In this document: one piece after another, positions 17,096 to 25,936 of the stretch
Position numbering within the stretch: the stretch's first letter is position 1
Layout: each line of letters begins with the position of its first letter
Source of the DNA: Bradyrhizobium diazoefficiens
GTDB lineage: Bacteria; Pseudomonadota; Alphaproteobacteria; Rhizobiales; Xanthobacteraceae
Length of the DNA stretch: 64,000 nt
NCBI RefSeq assembly: GCF_018131015.1
Contig: NZ_JAFCJJ010000002.1
Span: 310,001-374,000 of the forward strand
Direction of reading: 5' to 3'
Translations under genes and position numbers: made by a program
Notes under the pieces: generated by a model
The model's input: only the letters and a program-made list of their open reading frames with translations
What the model was told of the DNA's origin: nothing
Databases searched by the model: none

Positions 17096-18277
17096 ATGAC
17101 GCACTACGACGTGATCGTGCTTGGCCTCGGCGCGATGGGCAGCTCGGCGCTCCATCAGCTTGCATCCCGAAACGTGCGCGTGCTCGGCATCGATCAGTAC
17201 GATCCTCCGCACCGGCTTGGCTCGACCCATGGCGAGAGCCGGATCACGCGGGTAGCGTGCGGCGAAGGCAAGATGTATTCGGCACTGGCGCGGCGGTCCC
17301 ATCGGATCTGGACCGAGCTCGAACAGGCGCTCGATGCCAGGCTCATGACGCTCAACGGGCTCGCCGTCATCGCCGGGCCCCGGGGCGCGCATCGGCACGG
17401 CAATCGCCGCTTTCTCGAGACGACCGAAGAGGCGGCCGTCCTGGCCGGCGTTGACTACAAGCTGCTGTCGCCTGCCGACATGATGGCCAGGCATCCGGCG
17501 TTCAGGATCCAGAGCGACGAGAAAGTCTACTACGATTGGGACAGCGGCTACGTGATGCCGGAAGCCTGCATCCGGGCGCAGCTCGTCCGGGCCCGACAGC
17601 AAAAGGCCGAGATTGGGATCAACGAGCGTGTCCTGTCCTATGAGAGCGTGTCCGGCGGCGTTCGCGTCGAAACGGATCGCGGCGTCTACCACGCCGGTCA
17701 GCTCATCGTCACTGCGGGGCCATGGCTGCCGCAAATATTGCGCACGAGCGTGCCGGTCGATCTAAAGGTGCAGCGCCAGGTGCTGTACTGGTTCGCGCTC
17801 GAGGACCGCAAGGCGCTGGACATGTACAGGCCCGAGAATTGTCCGGTCTATATCTGGATGGTCCCGGACAGGGACCAGAACATCTACGGCTTCCCCGCGA
17901 TCGGCGGCGTATCGGACGGCATGAAAGTCGCGACCGAACAGGAGAAGACGCAGGACACGCCGGAGAATGTCGCGAGGACCGTCTCCGAGGACGAGCGGCG
18001 TTCGATGTTCGAAACCTATGTCGCGCCGTTCTTCAACGGCGTGACCTCGCAATGCGTCCGGGCCGAAGTCTGCCTCTACACCAAGGTCAAGGATGCCCGC
18101 TTTATCATCGATCGCCATCCAGACATGCCGAACGTCATCGTGGCCTCGCCTTGCTCGGGCCACGGCTTCAAGCATTCCGGCGGCATCGGTGAAGTTTTGG
18201 CGATGCTCGCTCTTGGCGAGCCGATTCCCGATGATATCGATATGCGGCAGTTTGGGTTCGAGGAGCCGTCGCCGTGA
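17096..18277 (+). CDS. FAD-dependent amine oxidase of the SolA/monomeric sarcosine oxidase family
   Basis: This 393-residue flavoprotein belongs to the DAO superfamily, closest in layout to N-methyl-L-tryptophan oxidase (SolA) and monomeric sarcosine oxidase. The FAD-binding motif is VIVLGLGAMGSSALHQLASR (residues 7-26), followed by IDQYDPPHRLGSTHGESRITR. The C-terminal flavin contacts lie in IIDRHPDMPNVIVASPCSGHGFKHSGGIGE. That segment holds the Cys of ASPCSGHGFK at the position where family members attach FAD covalently. The reaction is oxidative demethylation of a secondary amine, giving H2O2. It ends 14 bases before the tRNA fragment that marks the edge of the island, so it is outside it. 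Confidence 0.9.
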   Translation: MTHYDVIVLGLGAMGSSALHQLASRNVRVLGIDQYDPPHRLGSTHGESRITRVACGEGKMYSALARRSHRIWTELEQALDARLMTLNGLAVIAGPRGAHRHGNRRFLETTEEAAVLAGVDYKLLSPADMMARHPAFRIQSDEKVYYDWDSGYVMPEACIRAQLVRARQQKAEIGINERVLSYESVSGGVRVETDRGVYHAGQLIVTAGPWLPQILRTSVPVDLKVQRQVLYWFALEDRKALDMYRPENCPVYIWMVPDRDQNIYGFPAIGGVSDGMKVATEQEKTQDTPENVARTVSEDERRSMFETYVAPFFNGVTSQCVRAEVCLYTKVKDARFIIDRHPDMPNVIVASPCSGHGFKHSGGIGEVLAMLALGEPIPDDIDMRQFGFEEPSP

Positions 18278-18290
18278 AGTGCGGATGAAA

Positions 18291-18335
18291 TGGCGCACCC
18301 GACACGATTCGAACGTGTGACCTTTGCCTTCGGAG
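18291..18335 (-). repeat. 45-bp fragment of the tRNA-Arg(CCG) 3' half, candidate attachment site (attR)
   Basis: These 45 bases are identical to 25860-25904, the part of tRNA-Arg(CCG) from the anticodon loop to the CCA end, in the same orientation. The 5' half of the tRNA is absent, so it cannot be a functional tRNA. A tRNA 3' fragment in direct orientation downstream of an intact copy is the classic footprint of a tRNA-integrating element. Confidence 0.85.
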
Positions 18336-18517
18336 AACGCCGGGGTTGCTCTTCGTTCAAGCTCCGTTCGACAAGCTTGCGCTCGATCGTCTGTCCCTCG
18401 CTCAACTCGGCCCGCGGGTGGGGGTGGGACAGGTATCATGCCCCATCGCGCCGCAATAATTTCACAGTTTGGGGAACCAATGCCGCTGCCGGCTGGGGAA
18501 CAGCGCATGGGGGAGCC

Positions 18518-18703
18518 ATGACTGACAGCGAGTGGAAGGAGCGCTGGCACGAGGTCGAGCGCTTTCGACTGATGGCGCGGGAAACGACCGACCCGGTCGC
18601 GGCGGCTCTGCTTCTCGATATCGTGCTGGACCTGGAAGCCGAGTTGAATGAGCTGGTCGACGTAGAGGCGCAAGGGCTGCCACGGTTTGGCGCGGCGGCC
18701 TGA
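18518..18703 (+). CDS. Small hypothetical protein (61 residues)
   Basis: This small acidic, probably helical protein begins MTDSEWKERWHEVERFRLMA and ends VEAQGLPRFGAAA. The ATG at 18518 is preceded by GGGGGAG. A longer in-frame reading from 18290 would include the tRNA fragment and is rejected. The sequence pattern (charged heptads around LLLDIVLDLEAELNELV) suggests a helical hairpin or short coiled coil. No function can be given. It lies near the left edge of the island, and its C terminus is 10 bases from the convergent zinc-ribbon gene. Confidence 0.55.
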   Translation: MTDSEWKERWHEVERFRLMARETTDPVAAALLLDIVLDLEAELNELVDVEAQGLPRFGAAA

Positions 18704-18713
18704 GCGCAGGCCC

Positions 18714-18959
18714 CTACTTGGGTGGCTGCAAATCGCCTTGAAGCCAGCGGCCAAGAGCCTTGGAATGCAGGGGATCCTCGCAGGCGGCGAGGAGCGTAAG
18801 CACGTCATCGCAGACGGCACACCGGAACCTGTGCAGGTCCATGCCCGAGCGCTCTGGCTCCATGCTGACGAGCATCATCGAAGCCTTGCACCTGGGACAG
18901 CTCGGGCGCTGAAATGTGATCGGTGGAATGGCGAGCGATGGGCGTTGAGGCTGGATCAT
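18714..18959 (-). CDS. Small zinc-ribbon-like protein
   Basis: This 81-residue protein has two CxxC pairs: PSCPRCKASM near residue 20 and FRCAVCDDVL near residue 47. The spacing is typical of a zinc ribbon. An N-terminal Pro-rich lead and a C-terminal stretch (ACEDPLHSKALGRWLQ) flank it. It is probably a small zinc-binding protein, either nucleic-acid or protein binding. Similar short genes are scattered through Bradyrhizobium genomes as hypothetical proteins. It lies 155 bases beyond the last gene of the quinoprotein operon on the same strand and is probably not part of it. Confidence 0.65.
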   Translation of the reverse strand: MIQPQRPSLAIPPITFQRPSCPRCKASMMLVSMEPERSGMDLHRFRCAVCDDVLTLLAACEDPLHSKALGRWLQGDLQPPK

Positions 18960-19114
18960 GACGCCTCCCTTCGCATCGGCGGGAGCGCAACACTCTCAGT
19001 CACCGGCAATTGCCAGGATACGGAGCGGTGATCACGCGAGTATGCGCCGTAGCGGCCTCAAACGCGAGTCAATTCGGGCCCCGGCACCAGGCAGGTTCTT
19101 TCACTGTTTGGCGT

Positions 19115-20533
19115 TCACCTGTTGCGCGGAGCGCTACTGCCTTCCAGCAGCCCTCGATCCAGCAGCCAATTCATGACGGCTGGAACGCCGTCTGTTGGCA
19201 GAACCGACGCCAGCGCTTGTTCGAGCTCTGAAATTGTGCAAACCGGCGGCATCCGATCGAGAAATGCCGGCAGGTCCAATCCGCCGACGAAAGCAACGGG
19301 GCGCGAGAGGGCCGGGTGACTGACGGCTGGGCGTAACACGACGAAATCCCCGACAATTGCGGGCACATCCTCGACGCTCGCGTCGGACGACAGCACAACG
19401 CAATCGTCACTGCGCCACGCATGGCGGATGGTTCCGTTTTCTCGCGCTGCGGTCGCTCGAGCTCCCGCTGCACGCCGTCGCCAAAATGCCTCTGCGGCAT
19501 AGCGCACGTGCTCCGCGTAATGCAGTGTCGCCCAGGTGGCATGCTGGGAGGCGGCGTCCTCGACGTGCCGGACGTAGAAGCGTTGCGCGACGGCCGCCGA
19601 ATCCGGATTCAACAGCATCGTGTGCACCGCGACGCTGCCGGCAAGTGCCGACTGGATCGCGGCCTGCACGCCGCTGGACGATAACGGATCGATCGCAAAC
19701 GCGGCCTCGCCGACCTTGATGAAGCCGGCACCGCAACATTGGCGGTCTTCGAAACGGGTGGCGTCACAACACAACACGCGGTCGTCGAGCCGCACGGACG
19801 TCGCTCCCGACAGCAACTGCGAGACCTCGATCAAGCGATGATAGTGATGGCGCAGGGTCGCGCCATCCGCGTTCCGAAAATCGCGGTCGACGAACGCGAT
19901 CGCGTTGAAACCGCGTCCCGGGATCGGCGATCCCCAATACCATTGTCGCCGGCCGGCCTCGACACGCGGCGTCTCCGGCAATCCGGTGCCGCGCCAATAG
20001 CCGTACAACGCCAGCGTTTTCGGCGACGTCTCGCGCCGTTGTCGCGGCAGAAAACCGGTTCGGCCGGACGCGTCGATCACGAACTTCGATCGAATGGAAA
20101 GGCTGGTCTCCTCCGCCTCGGCGCTGATTTGCCAGACCGAGTTATCCCGCTCGGCTGCCCGCGCCGTGGCAGGCTGGATGACGCGTGCACCGGCCTGTTG
20201 CGCGGCTTCGAGCAGGAGCTGGTCGAACTGCGCCCGGTCGACGCTAAAGCCGCGCGGGTCCATCGGCCTGTGCGCGAACCCGTCGCCGCGCCAATTGACC
20301 TCGGCGTGATCGAAGCGCAGCGCGCTTACGCGATCCAGCACCTGGGCCGCCCCGAGGAACTCGAGCTGAGCCGACACGCCACCGCTGAGGGCCTCGCCGA
20401 CATGCGATCGCGGGAATGCCCTTCGTTCAAGCAGGCAAACACTGTGGCCCAGCTGGGTGATGCGGAGTGCGGCAGCAGAACCCGCAGGCCCGCCACCGAC
20501 GATCAGGACGTCACAATCGAGCTCCAGCGCCAA
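19115..20533 (-). CDS. LodB/QhpG-like FAD-dependent oxidoreductase (tryptophan halogenase-like fold)
   Basis: This flavoprotein of about 472 residues has the GxGxxG motif in DVLIVGGGPAGSAAALRI near the N terminus, followed by LLERRAFPRSHVGEALSGG. A second FAD motif is FIKVGEAAFAIDPLSSSGVQAAI. These match the class A/halogenase-type monooxygenases that include LodB and QhpG, which hydroxylate a tryptophan of their partner during tryptophylquinone formation. The C-terminal 60 residues (VCTISELEQALASVLP region) form a small extra domain, possibly winged-helix-like. The gene starts at a TTG (20533) only 4 bases after the radical SAM stop; a longer reading to 20608 would lie inside that gene. It is the last gene of the operon. 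The role as a cofactor-forming enzyme is inferred from context. Confidence 0.82.
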   Translation of the reverse strand: MALELDCDVLIVGGGPAGSAAALRITQLGHSVCLLERRAFPRSHVGEALSGGVSAQLEFLGAAQVLDRVSALRFDHAEVNWRGDGFAHRPMDPRGFSVDRAQFDQLLLEAAQQAGARVIQPATARAAERDNSVWQISAEAEETSLSIRSKFVIDASGRTGFLPRQRRETSPKTLALYGYWRGTGLPETPRVEAGRRQWYWGSPIPGRGFNAIAFVDRDFRNADGATLRHHYHRLIEVSQLLSGATSVRLDDRVLCCDATRFEDRQCCGAGFIKVGEAAFAIDPLSSSGVQAAIQSALAGSVAVHTMLLNPDSAAVAQRFYVRHVEDAASQHATWATLHYAEHVRYAAEAFWRRRAAGARATAARENGTIRHAWRSDDCVVLSSDASVEDVPAIVGDFVVLRPAVSHPALSRPVAFVGGLDLPAFLDRMPPVCTISELEQALASVLPTDGVPAVMNWLLDRGLLEGSSAPRNR

Positions 20534-20537
20534 ATGC

Positions 20538-21917
20538 CTAGGCCTCTTGATGCGCCGCCCGAGACGTCTGTTCGAACATCTCGGGCCTGGCGCGCGACAT
20601 CCGTCCATAGACCGTCAGGCAATAGTGCAGCCAGCCGCGGATGAAGTCACACGCCGGCCGGCCGCGGTGCATTGCCTCGTGATGGCACGAGCCGCCGCAG
20701 AGATAACGCGCCCAGCAACTGCTGCATGGCTCCTGCTTGTGGACATGACGCCCGGCCAGCCAGAGCGACTGCCTGTCGAGGTCGACGCCGGAGGCGAGAT
20801 CTCCCATGCGGCCGCTGTCATCGCCGACAAACCGGTGGCAGGCGCTCAGCTCGCCGTCTGCGGAGACGCCGAAATAGCCGCCGCCCGCGCCGCAAGGATA
20901 AGGCCGGTGCGTGCCCTTGTGGATCTCGCGCAGGGCGTTGAGGAGGTTGGCAAACGGATAGCGGCAGCCGGCGAGGCTTTGCCGGACAAATGCCTCGCCG
21001 CAATCCACCATCTGTTCGAGCATCACGCCGAGATCGCCGTGCTGCATCTCATCGGCGTGGTCGGGCGCGCTGAGCATCGGCGAGAAGCCGACGCTGTGAA
21101 AGCCGCGCGCGACAAAGCTGTCGAGCGTCGCGCGCAAATCGAGATTGCGCGGCGTGACGGTGACCCGTGCGGACACCTGCATCCCGTTCTGGCGCGCCAG
21201 CATCGGAGCGATATTGGCCATGATGCGCGCATAGCTGCCGCTGCCGCGCTTGAAGGGCCTGAGGCGGTCGTGGGTCGCTTCCGTTCCGTCGAGGCTGACC
21301 GTCACGGCGAAGCGATGCCGCTCGAACAGGTCGATATCGGACGCGCTGACCAGTGTGCCGTTCGTCGTGATCGAGAACGTCAGTGGGACGCGCATTCGTT
21401 CGGCCTGCGCCGCGGCGTATCGCGTGGCATCGTGCAGGACCTCGCGGTTGGCGAGCGGCTCGCCGCCGAGAAACGCCAGATTCACCCGCTCGCCCGGCGC
21501 GACCTGCGAGAGCAACAGGTCCACCGATCTGTGCGCGATCTGCTGGCTCATCGCCTTCGCGGCGCCGCCAAACTCGCCGCCGCGGGCGTAGCAATAGCTG
21601 CAACCGAGATTGCAGCTCTGCGCGATGGCCAGCGACAGCGCCCGAACCCTCAGGCCCTGCGGCGGTGTGTCGTTGACATAGGGTGCGCAGCCAAGTTCGA
21701 GCCCGGCGAGCCGCTGTTGCAGGGCGGAATGGTCTGCCGCGCGCAGATCCGCCCCGAGCTGCGCGGCCGTTGCGGAATCGATCTCGAACAGCCGGCTGCC
21801 TTGCGGCAGAAAGAGCTGGTGTACCCCGCCGGATTCGAGCAGATGCGCGTCGCGCGACCGGGGCCGGGAGTCCCGGAACAATCTCGGCGCGTTATCCGGA
21901 AGGGCTGAAACGTTCAT
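20538..21917 (-). CDS. Radical SAM/SPASM peptide maturase (QhpD-like)
   Basis: This 459-residue protein has the radical SAM motif Cys102-x3-Cys106-x2-Cys109 (SCNLGCSYCYA). LAFLGGEPLAN and SLDGTEATHDRLRPF follow. A Cys-rich SPASM region occupies roughly residues 340-440 (PYPCGAGGGYFGVSADG, SACHRF, CSSCWARYLCGGSC, CDFIRGW, HYC). It would hold two extra [4Fe-4S] clusters. Residues 25-75 resemble the N-terminal recognition region of peptide maturases. The layout matches QhpD, which forms Cys-to-Asp/Glu thioethers in the small subunit of quinohemoprotein amine dehydrogenase. The start codon directly follows the stop of the LodA-like C part (TAG-ATG), so translation is coupled. Its likely target is one of the two LodA-like proteins. 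Confidence 0.88.
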   Translation of the reverse strand: MNVSALPDNAPRLFRDSRPRSRDAHLLESGGVHQLFLPQGSRLFEIDSATAAQLGADLRAADHSALQQRLAGLELGCAPYVNDTPPQGLRVRALSLAIAQSCNLGCSYCYARGGEFGGAAKAMSQQIAHRSVDLLLSQVAPGERVNLAFLGGEPLANREVLHDATRYAAAQAERMRVPLTFSITTNGTLVSASDIDLFERHRFAVTVSLDGTEATHDRLRPFKRGSGSYARIMANIAPMLARQNGMQVSARVTVTPRNLDLRATLDSFVARGFHSVGFSPMLSAPDHADEMQHGDLGVMLEQMVDCGEAFVRQSLAGCRYPFANLLNALREIHKGTHRPYPCGAGGGYFGVSADGELSACHRFVGDDSGRMGDLASGVDLDRQSLWLAGRHVHKQEPCSSCWARYLCGGSCHHEAMHRGRPACDFIRGWLHYCLTVYGRMSRARPEMFEQTSRAAHQEA

Positions 21918-22787
21918 CTAGCTGTCGCCGCTGTCGCGATCGGCACTGTCCTGCGCATTGCTGCCGCCGATGATGAAGCGCAGCATACCCTGCCAGTCCC
22001 GAAACAGATCGTCGTAGCTGAGCAACCGGGGATCCTTGCGGTCGTCCAGAACGTAGTAGGGCTCGCCCGGTGTCTTCGGCTTGTTCATCCAGTTGTCGCC
22101 GCGGGTCTCGCCGCTCGCGGTATCGACCACGTTGACGTAGTCGGGCCGGCTCGCAGCCCAGTAGTAGCAGGCGCATTCACGGTAGTCGTTCTGCCAGGGC
22201 GAGCACAGCCCCTGGGTGAGCTCGCCGGGGTTGACGAGCGCCCGGGCGATGACCGGCTGGATCGTGGGCTGGCCGTTGACGTCCTTGATCTCGAAGAACC
22301 GCCGCAGCTCAAGCTCGCGATAGATCACCGATTTCGGATGGTCCTTGTCGAACAGCACCTCGTTCTCGGATTTCTCGGCGGTGAATCCGCACCGGATCTT
22401 CTGCCCCTGCTTCGCGATGATCCGGGCGAGGCTGTTCGACCATTCCATGAAGGACACGCCGTTCGGATTCGAGCCGTTGACGAGGGAACCCGCAGGAAAG
22501 CCCGGAAGGGTGATGCCGGTGGTCGCGACGCCGGTCGGAAGATCGTCGTCGTCGATCAGGATCAGGCGATGGTGAACGAGATCCTGGAAGGCGGGGTCCT
22601 CCGCTTCGAGCACATAGTTGTTATTCTCGATCAGCACGATGCCCACGAACATGCGCCGCCAGATCGCGCGGAAGTCCATCTCCAGGCCCGGGTAGCAGTT
22701 GGAAATGGCCGACACCGGCAAGGTGTTGGGCGGGTTGCCGCGCGCGCGATAATGCAGCTGAGCGGTGAGGTTCTGCGGCTTGATCAT
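21918..22787 (-). CDS. LodA-like C-terminal protein with tryptophylquinone-forming residues
   Basis: This 289-residue protein matches the C-terminal half of LodA/GoxA oxidases. SAISNCYPGLEMDF (residues 26-39) corresponds to the GGPFFPGIE-type segment, and GELTQGLCSPWQNDYREC (188-205) to the PGDLTxWMxxPWQADFxxC segment. LodA uses Asp512, Cys516 and Trp581 to make cysteine tryptophylquinone. Here Asp201 and Cys205 keep the D-x3-C spacing and Trp265 (DWQGMLRFI) lies 60 residues on, against 65 in LodA. Additional cysteines at 31, 133, 195 and 207 are present. There is no signal peptide. The gene overlaps the N-part stop by 4 bp (ATGA). In known LodA-like enzymes both halves form one chain, so this is a natural split. 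Substrate is unknown. Confidence 0.8.
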   Translation of the reverse strand: MIKPQNLTAQLHYRARGNPPNTLPVSAISNCYPGLEMDFRAIWRRMFVGIVLIENNNYVLEAEDPAFQDLVHHRLILIDDDDLPTGVATTGITLPGFPAGSLVNGSNPNGVSFMEWSNSLARIIAKQGQKIRCGFTAEKSENEVLFDKDHPKSVIYRELELRRFFEIKDVNGQPTIQPVIARALVNPGELTQGLCSPWQNDYRECACYYWAASRPDYVNVVDTASGETRGDNWMNKPKTPGEPYYVLDDRKDPRLLSYDDLFRDWQGMLRFIIGGSNAQDSADRDSGDS

Positions 22788-24184
22788 GATTTTGCTCCGC
22801 GCTTCGAAGCGGAAAACAGGTCGCCGACTGCGTTCTTGACGATGGTGTCGATCTGGCGCCGCGACAAGGCCAGCATCCGTCCGTCGGCGCCGCGCATCAT
22901 TGCCGGCATTTTCCGCCGCCCGGCATCGGACAAGTCGCCGATCTCATCGGGCTGGCGCAAGGCCTGGGCGAACCATGCGCCGGTGCCGCTGCGCAGCGCC
23001 GCCAGGATGTTCTGGTGCAGCGCCATCAGGGCATGGTTGTCGACCGAGGTCGGCGTCATGATCGGTTGGTAGTAGCGGCTGAAATCGTTGGTATCCTGCC
23101 GCACCATCGTGCTCGCGACGTTGATCCGGCCTTCGATCGTGTTGCCGTTCATGGCGGCGGTGTTCATCAGCCTCACCGACTCGATCGCGCGGCGGACGAT
23201 CTCTTCGGCGTCTTCCAGGGTGACGCTGGCGTCCGCTTCGGGGCCGAGAAGGACCTGGTCGAGTTCGTCCGCGGCGGTGCGGATCGGCACTGAATCCGGC
23301 GCAAAGGTCGGCGGGCCGGCGGCGATGCGCGCGAAGGCGGACAGCGTCTTGCCGCCGATCACGAGCGTCGCCGTGACGATGCCGTCGCACTCGTCGTCGA
23401 GATACCCCCAGCTGATCTGGTCGCCGGATTTGGGGTCGCTGTAGCCGGCATAGATTGCGCCGGGCACCGTGCGCTCGGGCGCCGGCGTCTTGCCGTCGTC
23501 GAAGCCGCGCCAGGTGCCCTTCTTGGGATCGTAGATGATACGCTCGGGCGAAATGATGTCGTCCCTGGTCTCCACCACCTTGTTGAAGGCGTTGACCGTC
23601 TTGCGCTTGTCGGATGAACCGTAGACCCAGCCGCCCGCAGGTGTGAAGCGCAGGCGGATTTCAGGGAATGCGCGCGTCGGCTTGATGTATTGCACCGAGC
23701 CCAGCGGCAGGACCTTGCCATGGAAGAAGTTCACGCAATGCCCCTCCAGCGCGTGGGCCGCGTGATCGTTGAATTCGGCCTTGGCCTCGATGCGGTCGGC
23801 GGCAATGCCCGTTCTGCGGAAGATCTTGTGATTGCCGACCTCGACCTTCCATGCCAGCGATGCCGGCTTTAGCTTGTGCTTGTCCAGCAGCGCCAGCGTC
23901 AGCGGTTCGAGCGCATCGTCGCCGGTTCGTGCGAAGACTTCCAGGAAGGGAGCCACCGGCCGGATGGCGCCGCCGTCCCGGAACTTGACGCGGTCCGGCG
24001 TGTAGGTTCCCTTGATCTCGCCGGTCGCGCGATCGACGCGAAAGGTCTCCGCGCCCGTGATCTTGCGAAAGCCAAGGGCGTCGTTGTCGTCGAGGACGAG
24101 ATCGTAGTTCTCGAGCGGCGTTTCGGATGCGCCCAACCGTGCGATCGCAAACGGCGGCAGGATGCGAATTTCGGTGATGCTCAT
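22784..24184 (-). CDS. LodA-like N-terminal protein
   Basis: This 466-residue protein matches the N-terminal and middle part of LodA-type quinoprotein oxidases. The first segment, MSITEIRILPPFAIARLGAS, is the LodA-type IxxhPxxxIARLGxS start, followed by beta-rich sequence (GAIRPVAPFLEVFA, GVxWYG-like AGGWVYGS). Near the C terminus, RRKMPAMMRGADGRMLALSR resembles the MPxLxGD...LTxxQY segment before the cofactor domain. It has no signal peptide and no cofactor residues of its own. It starts at the ATG at 24184, overlapping the ferritin-like stop by 4 bp, and its stop overlaps the C-part start in the same way. The two parts together (755 residues) are close to LodA (about 726). They probably assemble as subunits. 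Confidence 0.78.
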   Translation of the reverse strand: MSITEIRILPPFAIARLGASETPLENYDLVLDDNDALGFRKITGAETFRVDRATGEIKGTYTPDRVKFRDGGAIRPVAPFLEVFARTGDDALEPLTLALLDKHKLKPASLAWKVEVGNHKIFRRTGIAADRIEAKAEFNDHAAHALEGHCVNFFHGKVLPLGSVQYIKPTRAFPEIRLRFTPAGGWVYGSSDKRKTVNAFNKVVETRDDIISPERIIYDPKKGTWRGFDDGKTPAPERTVPGAIYAGYSDPKSGDQISWGYLDDECDGIVTATLVIGGKTLSAFARIAAGPPTFAPDSVPIRTAADELDQVLLGPEADASVTLEDAEEIVRRAIESVRLMNTAAMNGNTIEGRINVASTMVRQDTNDFSRYYQPIMTPTSVDNHALMALHQNILAALRSGTGAWFAQALRQPDEIGDLSDAGRRKMPAMMRGADGRMLALSRRQIDTIVKNAVGDLFSASKRGAKS

Positions 24185-25629
24185 ATCGCGCCCCGCATCG
24201 CAGATGGCCCAAGCGCGGCACCGCCGATTCCCAGGATCGTCCTGATGGCTGCGATCGTCTCGCGGTCGAGCACGGCAAGGCCCTTCAGATAGTCCTTCTC
24301 GGTCGCGTCCGCATGGGTCGCGATCCGGCCGTTGAGCGTGATCGAAGCGTCCAGCAAATCCAGATGCAGGCGCCAGCAATCGCGCTCGGCCGCTGGCAGC
24401 GTGATCGAATATGGCATTTCGAAGGGCGGGCCGGCGCGTGGGCCATCCGGGGATGGACCCAATGGCAGCTTCACCAGGATCCTGCCGATGGCACGCAGAT
24501 TGTACATCTCGCCAAACGTCCGGTGCACGATCATGCCGCGCGCTGCGGCGTCCTCCTGGCGGGAGTCGGCGCCGGAGATGCGGAACGCATGCGACAAATA
24601 CACCAGCAGCATGCGATAGCGGAGATTGAACAGCTCAGCCCAGCGTCGCGTCCGGTCATTTGCAATGTAGCTCGTGCCCGGGATATCGCCCTCACCGCCC
24701 TGGGTGCGCGGATTGGGCGCGAGTTCGATCGTCGGCGACCAGCCGTCGCCTTCTTTCGGAAACTCGCGATAGATCTGCAGGAAACGACGGAAATGCGATA
24801 ATTCGTCGATGTCAGGGTCGATATCGGCCGCTTCTCCCTGTTCGGCGACGGCTTCAAGCGCGGTCACCGCGCTGTCGCGCGAATAGGCCGTCATGATCAG
24901 AAGATCCGGCGTCTTGCTTTCGGGGGAAAGCGTCGCGCCACGCTCGCCCTGGCGGTAGGCTCGTCCCCATTCGTCCCACGAGGCCTGATAGGGCAGCGTG
25001 TCCGGCTGGAATACCGCGTCGGACAAGAGCTTTTCGTTTCCGATCACGTCGATCATGAGGGAGTACAACACGCCGACGCGCTTGACCGGCATCGACTGGC
25101 CCGCAAGTGCGAGATCGTAGATCTCCTTTTTCTCGTCGGCCGTGACGTCCTTGGGCCACTTCTCCGGGCTCTCGGTGACGACATAGCGGGCAAGGGAGGC
25201 CCGGCTGAGCGGCTCGAGTGCAAACTCGAAGGGATAGAACGGCGCGTCCCAGGGATAGTCGTTGCGATCGAGATTGAGCGGACCACCGATCAGCCGCAGA
25301 ACATTCTCGACGGTGATGAGATGGGCCATTTCCTCCTTGGCAATACCGAGAATGACCTCCTGCCATCGTCGGACGTCCGCCTGCCGGGCCCTGGGAACCT
25401 GAGGGCCGCCGAGCGAATAGGCGGCATAGAGATATTGCACCATCAACAGGTGTTCGATCTCGGCGCCGATATGAAGCAGGTAGACCGCGTAATCGTGCCC
25501 GGAGAAGCCTGCCGGCAGCTCGTGCTTGTCTTTCGCCGCGGCCGTTCGCGCAAACGCCGCCATCGAGGAGACTACGGGCGCCTTCGGCGAGAACAGCCAT
25601 TCCAGGTTCTTGGCGACACGGGAGCGCAT
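24181..25629 (-). CDS. Ferritin-like domain protein (VioB/RebD-type iminophenyl-pyruvate dimer synthase family)
   Basis: This 482-residue protein is the first gene of the island operon. Residues about 40-260 form a ferritin-like four-helix bundle of the type in VioB and RebD. ExxH motifs occur at E57-H60 (GAEIEHLLMVQYLYAAY) and E100-H103 (IAKEEMAHLITVENVL), and a third lies later in DIDELSHFRRFLQIYREF. These would bind a non-haem iron pair. The C-terminal 200 residues are helical and lack the haem catalase-like domain of VioB, which is much longer. The ATG at 25629 follows GAGGGG. The stop overlaps the LodA-like N part (ATGA). Iron-dependent oxidation of an amino-acid-derived imine or of a peptide is conceivable; the reaction is not known. 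Confidence 0.82.
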   Translation of the reverse strand: MRSRVAKNLEWLFSPKAPVVSSMAAFARTAAAKDKHELPAGFSGHDYAVYLLHIGAEIEHLLMVQYLYAAYSLGGPQVPRARQADVRRWQEVILGIAKEEMAHLITVENVLRLIGGPLNLDRNDYPWDAPFYPFEFALEPLSRASLARYVVTESPEKWPKDVTADEKKEIYDLALAGQSMPVKRVGVLYSLMIDVIGNEKLLSDAVFQPDTLPYQASWDEWGRAYRQGERGATLSPESKTPDLLIMTAYSRDSAVTALEAVAEQGEAADIDPDIDELSHFRRFLQIYREFPKEGDGWSPTIELAPNPRTQGGEGDIPGTSYIANDRTRRWAELFNLRYRMLLVYLSHAFRISGADSRQEDAAARGMIVHRTFGEMYNLRAIGRILVKLPLGPSPDGPRAGPPFEMPYSITLPAAERDCWRLHLDLLDASITLNGRIATHADATEKDYLKGLAVLDRETIAAIRTILGIGGAALGPSAMRGAI

Positions 25630-25859: not shown

Positions 25860-25936
25860 TGGCGCACCCGACACGATTCGAACGTGTGACCTTTGCCTTC
25901 GGAGGGCAACGCTCTATCCAGCTGAGCTACGGGTGC
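25860..25936 (-). tRNA. tRNA-Arg (anticodon CCG)
   Basis: On the minus strand the 77 bases fold as a tRNA. The acceptor arms are GCACCCG and CGGGTGC with discriminator G and an encoded CCA. The D arm contains AGCTCAGCTGGATAGAGC, the anticodon loop is CTCCGAA in a TTGCC/GGCAA stem, and the T arm carries GGTTC-type GTTCGAATC. Anticodon CCG reads CGG (Arg). Its 3' half is duplicated at 18291-18335, so it appears to be the integration site of the neighbouring island. Confidence 0.95.

Follow-up and report, generated by a model that had tools for sequence, protein, structure and literature searches.

LodA and GoxA are an L-lysine epsilon-oxidase and a glycine oxidase, respectively. The cysteine tryptophylquinone (CTQ) of LodA is formed from C516 and W581, as given in sections of PMC4417212. 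A second CTQ system is the quinohemoprotein amine dehydrogenase (QHNDH; QhpA–G), for which the chemistry of the maturation enzymes QhpD and QhpG is described in PMC7876137, and in sections of the same paper the tryptophylquinone systems are said to suggest convergent evolution. Protein-derived quinone cofactors are few, and research into how they form is ongoing. Here we analyse five genes in a 64,000-nucleotide stretch of Bradyrhizobium diazoefficiens DNA (contig NZ_JAFCJJ010000002.1, positions 310,001 to 374,000; the window), from a host genome of 7.1 Mb. The five open reading frames (ORFs), all open on the − strand at window coordinates 19115–25629, encode a ferritin-like protein (FER), the N-terminal and C-terminal parts of a LodA/GoxA-like protein (LN and LC), a radical SAM enzyme (rSAM) and a flavoprotein (FAD). 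Judged from sequence and fold comparisons, this operon probably encodes a thioether-stapled CTQ amine or amino-acid oxidase, built on a LodA scaffold, matured by QhpD- and QhpG-like enzymes and accompanied by a ferritin-like partner.

The initial annotation of this DNA had called the five-gene arrangement a candidate undescribed system, and no description of it was found among the matches listed in the open-licence PMC literature. None of those matches links a LodA-type protein to a radical SAM gene; preprints and most subscription journals lie outside this set. Among the open-licence papers, the terms LodA, radical SAM and quinoprotein occurred together only in the QhpG paper, and the main text of a survey of 168 LodA proteins has no word beginning with "radical".

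Fold of the LN and LC chains

LN and LC had been annotated as two parts of a LodA-like chain. When they were searched with Pfam LodA_N and LodA_C, both stayed below the family cut-offs, although the LodA_C cut-off was reached in relatives, by L109 (25.6 bits) and by the G070 gene (25.2 bits together with its neighbours). In NCBIfam, LN scored 18.9 bits with GoxA (cut-off 750), while LC scored 12.9 bits with LodA and 13.7 bits with the QhpC gamma family NF037958 (cut-off 50) over overlapping stretches, the latter match covering the cofactor loop only. Plain phmmer searches of the PDB returned LodA and GoxA with E values of 0.28–0.9 only for LN and LC, which is insufficient alone, and with LC oligopeptidase B outranked LodA. 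Because these single-sequence tests leave the LodA kinship open, family profiles and the fold were needed.

A profile of 27 fused relatives (A3) aligned by hhalign with one of 19 ordinary LodA-like proteins (A5) at 99.3%, with E = 1.2e-20 and 19% identity over 410 columns. It spans profile columns 3–534, which correspond to LN and to the first part of LC; the alignment ends shortly after the PGLE motif and leaves out the cofactor loop. When the A3 profile was searched against the PDB with hmmsearch, the top 11 sequences were all LodA or GoxA (E 7e-6 to 3e-4), and the next had E = 1.1. In LodA, the two best stretches of this search fell on the YLDDECDG region (LN) and on the cofactor loop (LC).

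The AlphaFold model of a fused relative, L088 (758 aa, mean predicted local distance difference test score (pLDDT) 78.7, predicted template modelling score 0.86), gave the same families. All 50 matches listed by Foldseek were GoxA or LodA (E 7e-13 to 2e-10), and the VIA comparison gave 14 GoxA/LodA entries at Z 14.9–21.1, with the next row at Z 6.1; absence of a family from the VIA lists excludes nothing. The best entries were GoxA 6byw (Z 21.1, 416 residues, root-mean-square deviation 3.9) and LodA 2ymw (Z 20.9, 430 residues, 3.7). The LodA/GoxA fold was found in L088 over residues 4–752, and the window's LN and LC match such fused chains. The LodA kinship of both parts was borne out by these profile–profile, PDB profile and fold comparisons despite the sub-threshold Pfam scores, and on sequence and model together we take LN and LC as one LodA/GoxA-fold protein, present here in two chains.

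Below GoxA and LodA, the VIA rows include several proteases with PDZ domains (tricorn, D1 processing protease and Deg), matched at model residues ~504–652 with Z 4.7–6.1, values at which similarity often arises by chance. In LC, ~160 residues separate PGLE from the cofactor loop. From these two observations we consider a PDZ-like insertion in this interval likely, though the support is weak.

The predicted cofactor loop

In the PDB profile alignment (E = 0.013), C205 of LC corresponds to position 516 and D201 to position 512 of the LodA chain 3weu_A; Asp512 we take to be the conserved aspartate of LodA. W210 is equated with the CTQ tryptophan because short-loop members of the ordinary LodA-like proteins, for example PWQADFYECRDHWWPAVRPD, have a tryptophan at that place, and it is kept in all 58 rows of our 58-row alignment (A2). 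C195, D201, C205, C207 and D216 are likewise in 58/58 rows, and all six residues are also in 80/80 of the related loci described below. The scan pattern used to find those loci, R[ED]C[ASG]C[YH]YW, partly presets C205, C207 and W210 in them, while C195, D201 and D216 are free of it. YYW stands at the loop in every one of the 80 loci, where the pattern asked for [YH]YW.

C195 and C207 are additions when compared with ordinary LodA-like proteins. At 32 ordinary LodA_C loci, Ala, Gly or Ser occupies the C195 position, and Cys never occurs at that of C207. The LC loop, LCSPWQNDYRECACYYWAASRPD, was set beside the loop of QhpC from six qhp loci, which has 24 residues in variants that differ by one to three letters, and the order of Cys and Asp around the CTQ is alike in both. 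By sequence, the LC loop is a loop with the short-loop LodA spacing from predicted CTQ Cys to Trp, together with two cysteines in QhpC order. QhpC has three Cys–Asp/Glu pairs around the CTQ, the crosslinks C27–D33 and C7–E16 among them. Two pairs can be matched in LC, as C195–D201 and C207–D216. A further cysteine, C31, is present in 54 of the 58 A2 rows, and phenylalanine takes its place in 19/19 ordinary LodA-like proteins. We would guess that C31 and the invariant E36 form a third pair.

The predicted maturation enzymes

The rSAM protein matched Pfam Radical_SAM at 49.2 bits (cut-off 29.5), and its best NCBIfam family was QhpD (TIGR03906), on which seven QhpD of the phylum sample score 746–780 bits. 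It also scored 266.8 bits with the PapB ranthipeptide maturase family, short of the cut-off of 340. Ten cysteines, C102, C106 and C109 among them, are kept in 37/37 operon-linked rSAM and in 6/6 QhpD. Cysteine at the A168 position occurs in 5/6 QhpD and 0/37 operon-linked rSAM, and C306 has the opposite distribution (37/37 operon-linked rSAM, 0/6 QhpD). In a tree of these enzymes, QhpD formed one clade (SH-aLRT, the Shimodaira–Hasegawa-like approximate likelihood-ratio test, 99), separate from the operon-linked enzymes, and the Nostoc and Streptomyces variants were also separate; the outgroup branches are very long and the root is not trusted, so that this tree is used for the QhpD clade only. 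The nearest to the window's rSAM in the tree were those of Sphingomonas solaris and of a Bradyrhizobium plasmid. The host genome has no QhpD over the cut-off, and it has two ordinary LodA genes elsewhere.

The flavoprotein, a match to Pfam Trp_halogenase/FAD_oxidored, had been described as LodB/QhpG-like, and of the two it is closer to QhpG. FAD scored 289 bits with the QhpG family NF049967, over the cut-off of 240; the QhpG of six qhp genomes, located in the qhp loci by means of this same family after phmmer had given no match in the first qhp regions, score 407–588 bits. With the LodB/GoxB families it scored 135.6 (NF038171) and 134.9 bits (NF038174), missing the cut-off of 400. In the flavoprotein tree, LodB lies on one side of a branch with SH-aLRT 100 and QhpG on one side of another, also 100, so that LodB is a separate clade. 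The mean path of the operon-linked FAD is 4.2 to QhpG and 5.0 to LodB.

Co-occurrence of the added cysteines and the radical SAM gene

We collected loci with LodA_C (PF18417) from a sample of 398 genomes of the phylum and one of 146 genomes of the genus and, with weak LC matches included, obtained 44 loci (L112–L155). L114 and L148, which lack the motif, were dropped and identical motif windows were merged, leaving 36 distinct loci. Both added cysteines were present at four of them (the window, G070, G136 and G002), and an rSAM ORF accompanied them in 4/4. The remaining 32 loci have neither cysteine alone nor both, and none has an rSAM ORF (0/32). Each locus reaches ~1.5 kb to either side, less at contig ends, so that a more distant rSAM gene among the 32 would escape this count. 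Seven genus-sample rows without a locus of their own were left uncounted, among them the L018 gene, which has both cysteines and rSAM, and the window's own.

Conservation of the operon across phyla

A scan of one genome each from 84,980 species gave 249 stretches, of which 217 were relatives, and the best 80 were kept. These came from Pseudomonadota (35), Bacteroidota (27), Actinomycetota (6), Myxococcota (5), Acidobacteriota (3), Planctomycetota (2), Chloroflexota (1) and Verrucomicrobiota (1), eight phyla in total. FER could be located in 75 of the 80 loci, LN in 79, rSAM in 78 and FAD in 76. All genes were found in 71 loci, and the order FER-LN-LC-rSAM-FAD held in 71/71. The gap between FER and LN was at most 60 bp in 72/75 loci, and that between rSAM and FAD in 75/76. 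This conservation of gene set and order across phyla exceeds chance.

The other nine loci depart from this arrangement in different ways. L032 is complete but has no rSAM beside LC: FAD and rSAM both lie ~5.5 kb upstream of FER, on its contig and strand. In L089 the contig ends after LC, and rSAM and FAD are on a 3.8-kb contig of the same genome. L034 stops inside FAD, and FAD of L091 is upstream on the other strand. L105 has a FER match of 252 bits with its start unassigned. No FER was seen in L092, L095 and L103, which are at contig ends, nor in L038, which has a short LN match only. Among further loci, the genus relatives L016–L018 share the window's gene order, L019 has LN-LC-rSAM-FAD and no FER found before the contig end, and in L020 a ferritin-like domain (PF12902) follows LC in one chain. 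The Nostoc and Streptomyces plasmid loci L109 and L110 are re-ordered, with LN, the radical SAM gene, and then LC fused to a ferritin-like domain; the LN frame of L109 also matches FER (58 bits), and no strong QhpG-like match was found in the L109/L110 stretch (18 bits at most).

The chain is split in the window, as had been proposed, but the split is not a defining trait, since LN and LC are fused in 39 of the 80 loci and separate in 40, with L038 not classed. That the split stems from the recent breakage of a LodA gene was ruled out, because the 40 split loci come from five phyla, which indicates that the two-gene form is a stable state.

The family is sparse in the phylum sample, where it occurs in 1/398 genomes (the window's own), against 12/398 with LodA_C and 6/398 with QhpD over the cut-off. 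The other matches to our A1 profile in these genomes were three weak ones, two of them to ordinary LodA genes and the third to a sequence that lacks the motif. In PLSDB, 19 plasmid records match LC. Clustering of the flanking genes gave no recurring sixth gene, the largest clusters reaching 10/80 loci. One such cluster is a protein of ~500 aa (for example L041:3362–4909, a copy without a Pfam match), found in 10/80 loci; of the eight members listed, seven are upstream of the operon and that of L073 is downstream.

The ferritin-like partner

The PF12902 match of FER passes its cut-off of 22.3 bits, and no significant sequence match to FER was found in the PDB (best E = 0.13). Its model has a pLDDT of 86.6 and matched 3hl1 with Z 21.7 over 256 aligned residues (residues 35–404), while a second bundle at ~321–475 matched bacterioferritins and their kin with Z 15.6–17.8; since helical bundles often score high, these matches show fold and not function. 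On this model FER apparently holds two ferritin-like bundles, at ~residues 44–290 and 321–475. E59, E99, E100, H103, E153, E266 and H279 are conserved in 44/44 aligned FER, and the site they suit is probably diiron. The initial annotation had called this a VioB-type iron protein. That label does not hold: FER scored 57.7 bits with VioB (TIGR04492) against a cut-off of 1250, although it shares PF12902 with VioB.

A ferritin-like domain is fused to LC in L020 and L109 (by Pfam) and in L110 (by phmmer), and these fusions argue for a physical complex. Sections of PMC4417212 report PF12902 genes near fungal lodA genes, as well as catalase-domain fusions in group III LodA-like proteins. On the strength of these two reports, peroxide handling is preferred over imine coupling as the role of FER, and this is the weakest step of the argument. 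A gene similar to those for DyP-type peroxidases lies near the operon at L035:13094–14755, with similar ones in L030, L032 and L088; the Pfam score is barely over the cut-off for L035 only, and the others were assigned by clustering. Such a neighbour would fit peroxide production.

Proposed maturation and alternative explanations

In the maturation that we propose, the QhpD-like rSAM would make Cys-to-Asp thioether staples at C195–D201 and C207–D216, by analogy with C27–D33 and C41–D49 of QhpC. The QhpG-like flavoprotein would hydroxylate W210 twice, and W210 would then be joined to C205 and oxidised to CTQ. The mature enzyme, if it acts like LodA and GoxA, would deaminate a primary amine or amino acid via a Schiff base, with re-oxidation by O2 giving H2O2. 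FER, with its apparently intact diiron site, would handle peroxide, or imine, where it is made.

Several observations weigh against this proposal. LodA_N (PF17990) scored 15.4 bits on LN and LodA_C (PF18417) 23.8 bits on LC, missing cut-offs of 26.3 and 25. The Foldseek TM-scores of the L088 model were low (0.23–0.36), so either the domain arrangement differs or the model is loose, and the loop itself has a pLDDT of ~50. Trp581 of LodA, 65 residues beyond C516, falls outside the PDB profile alignment, and W210 is equated with it by way of the short-loop proteins. LodA itself and three ordinary loci (L146, L149 and L151) have a cysteine one position off that of C195, and a cysteine near this place is therefore not unique; the D216 position likewise holds Asp in a number of ordinary LodA-like proteins. 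The spacing is C-x-C-x2-W in LC and C-x3-C-x-W in QhpC, and LC offers no clear match for the third QhpC crosslink. The rSAM protein scored 309.1 bits with TIGR03906, missing the cut-off of 453, and is 27–31% identical to QhpD, so its product could differ from that of QhpD. Finally, the Fisher test of the co-occurrence (p = 1.7e-5) counts related sequences as independent.

It is on the product of the radical SAM enzyme that one alternative turns. The enzyme may make another modification, such as a Cys–Trp or Cys–Tyr bond or a different thioether, in which case the cofactor would not be CTQ but a novel one, either another quinone or a crosslinked cofactor. The low identity to QhpD, C306, the likeness to PapB-type ranthipeptide maturases and the YYW at the loop, of which the scan pattern preset part, are all compatible with this, but the CTQ cysteine and the conserved aspartate of LodA are kept, and the added cysteines follow the QhpC order. 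We regard a different product as unlikely. The ferritin-like protein raises another explanation, a cassette like VioA/VioB in which a LodA-like enzyme would supply an imine that the ferritin-like protein couples or oxygenates to yield a small molecule; with regard to cofactor and maturation this overlaps with the CTQ oxidase that we propose. PF12902 is shared by FER and VioB, FER accompanies LN in 75/80 loci, and the fusions with LC point the same way. The TIGR04492 score of FER is nevertheless far below its cut-off, and no biosynthetic neighbour recurs widely, the flanking clusters being limited to 10/80 loci. Such a cassette seems to us rather unlikely.

A flavoprotein gene normally follows LodA-like genes (sections of PMC4417212), and the locus might on that ground be an ordinary LodA operon that happens to lie beside an unrelated radical SAM gene. 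We rejected this explanation, which we hold to be highly improbable, on the single gene order in 71/80 loci from eight phyla and on the association of rSAM with the added cysteines (4/4 against 0/32). A true qhp operon was also rejected, from the Pfam and NCBIfam results and the lack of an over-cut-off QhpD in the host genome. The computational tests support the combination originally proposed for this locus, namely a LodA-type chain, a QhpD-type radical SAM enzyme, a QhpG/LodB-type flavoprotein and a ferritin-like protein, with cofactor maturation by two enzymes.

Layout and genomic setting of the operon

The features are listed in Table 1. The five genes had been annotated as overlapping or abutting on one strand, and the coordinates confirm this. 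FER and LN, and likewise LN and LC, overlap by 4 bp (ATGA), the LC stop abuts the rSAM ATG, and rSAM and FAD are 4 bp apart, given a FAD start at TTG 20533. This start is a prediction; the longest FAD ORF, from ATG 20608, begins within the rSAM gene.

Table 1. Features of the operon and its surroundings in the window
Feature	Position	Strand	Remarks
FER, ferritin-like protein	24181..25629	-	482 aa; Pfam PF12902 114.5 bits over residues 53-288
LN, N-terminal part of LodA/GoxA-fold protein	22784..24184	-	466 aa; LodA_N sub-threshold; LC-fused homologues match LodA/GoxA
LC, C-terminal part of LodA/GoxA-fold protein, carries cofactor loop	21918..22787	-	289 aa; LodA_C sub-threshold
Cofactor loop GELTQGLCSPWQNDYRECACYYWAASRPD within LC	22140..22226	-	Predicted CTQ pair C205-W210, D201, added C195 and C207, D216
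PDZ-like domain between PGLE and cofactor loop	22293..22652	-	Approximate limits from fused homologue L088; weak, inferred
rSAM, QhpD-like radical SAM/SPASM maturase	20538..21917	-	459 aa; TIGR03906 309 bits
FAD, QhpG-like flavoprotein monooxygenase, predicted peptidyl-Trp hydroxylase	19115..20533	-	472 aa; NF049967 289 bits
tRNA-Arg(CCG) 3' end, direct-repeat copy 1	25860..25904	-	Inside tRNA 25860-25936
Exact 45-bp repeat of tRNA-Arg(CCG) 3' end, copy 2	18291..18335	-	Operon between both copies

An exact 45-bp repeat of the 3' end of tRNA-Arg(CCG) brackets a 7.57-kb stretch that contains the operon. By its sequence this stretch resembles a small genomic island next to a tRNA gene, as left after site-specific integration. 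No integrase was found by Pfam among the five operon genes, a search that did not include the small ORFs at 18290–19031. The tRNA tail is matched in 145/146 genus genomes, and twice on one contig in several (for example G136:C50); with two candidates scored per genome, no empty tRNA site was shown among the 146. A DAO-family oxidase gene (17096–18277, + strand) adjoins copy 2 of the repeat, with full-length DNA matches in 2 other of the 146 genomes (again from two candidates per genome), and this gene may also be mobile. Upstream of the operon, L027, L068, L075, L077 and L079 have an oxidase that by eye resembles the DAO-family one.

LC was matched in 10/146 genus genomes; judged by the genes they contain, six of these belong to the family (G000, which is the host genome, G002, G017, G070, G136 and G137). 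This rarity within the genus, together with the nearest rSAM being in Sphingomonas solaris and on a Bradyrhizobium plasmid, suggests that the operon was likely acquired by horizontal transfer.

Comparison with known systems

If the proposed maturation is correct, the rSAM enzyme is predicted to act on a full-size oxidase chain and not on a small subunit. The proposal also offers a residue-level hypothesis for genes that are annotated in L107 and L108 as, in order, ferritin-like protein, hypothetical protein, hypothetical protein (LN and LC), radical SAM protein and tryptophan 7-halogenase (FAD). More tentatively, and as a view for which we would claim somewhat less than even chances, the operon may represent a third, widespread CTQ system that links the two known ones, with a LodA-fold loop stapled as in QhpC by two staples and possibly a further one at C31–E36. 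If so, LodA and QHNDH may have CTQ loops of common descent, or maturases of the QhpD/QhpG type may have moved between unrelated scaffolds, and the tryptophylquinone systems would not be wholly convergent; the ferritin-like partner would then give the oxidase complex two redox centres of different kinds. The combination of a LodA fold, QhpC-type cysteines and QhpD/QhpG-type maturases makes a direct test of convergence possible.

The likeness to VioB/RebD and to CC_0557 (3hl1) lies in the PF12902 ferritin-like domain of FER; unlike VioB and RebD, FER scores low against the VioB family, has a second ferritin-like bundle and belongs to a quinoprotein operon. With LodA and GoxA the operon shares the fold of LN and LC, the CTQ cysteine and conserved aspartate, and a flavoprotein gene, and with the short-loop LodA-like proteins it shares the loop tryptophan. 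It differs from LodA and GoxA in the split chain of the window (also in 40/80 relatives), the PDZ-like insertion, the two added loop cysteines, Cys31 in place of Phe, the QhpD-like rSAM, the QhpG-type flavoprotein and the ferritin-like gene. With QHNDH it shares the cluster cysteines of rSAM, a flavoprotein of the QhpG class and the Cys/Asp order around the CTQ. It differs from QHNDH in that none of the five genes encodes a small gamma, a haem or a beta-propeller subunit; a Pfam search confined to the operon and not extended to the rest of the genome gave no match to the dihaem alpha or beta-propeller beta subunits. Its loop, moreover, is in a LodA fold and two residues shorter. On these comparisons the operon would bridge two cofactor systems thought to be separate in origin, with a predicted oxidase that builds its quinone from its own chain with the tools of another enzyme.

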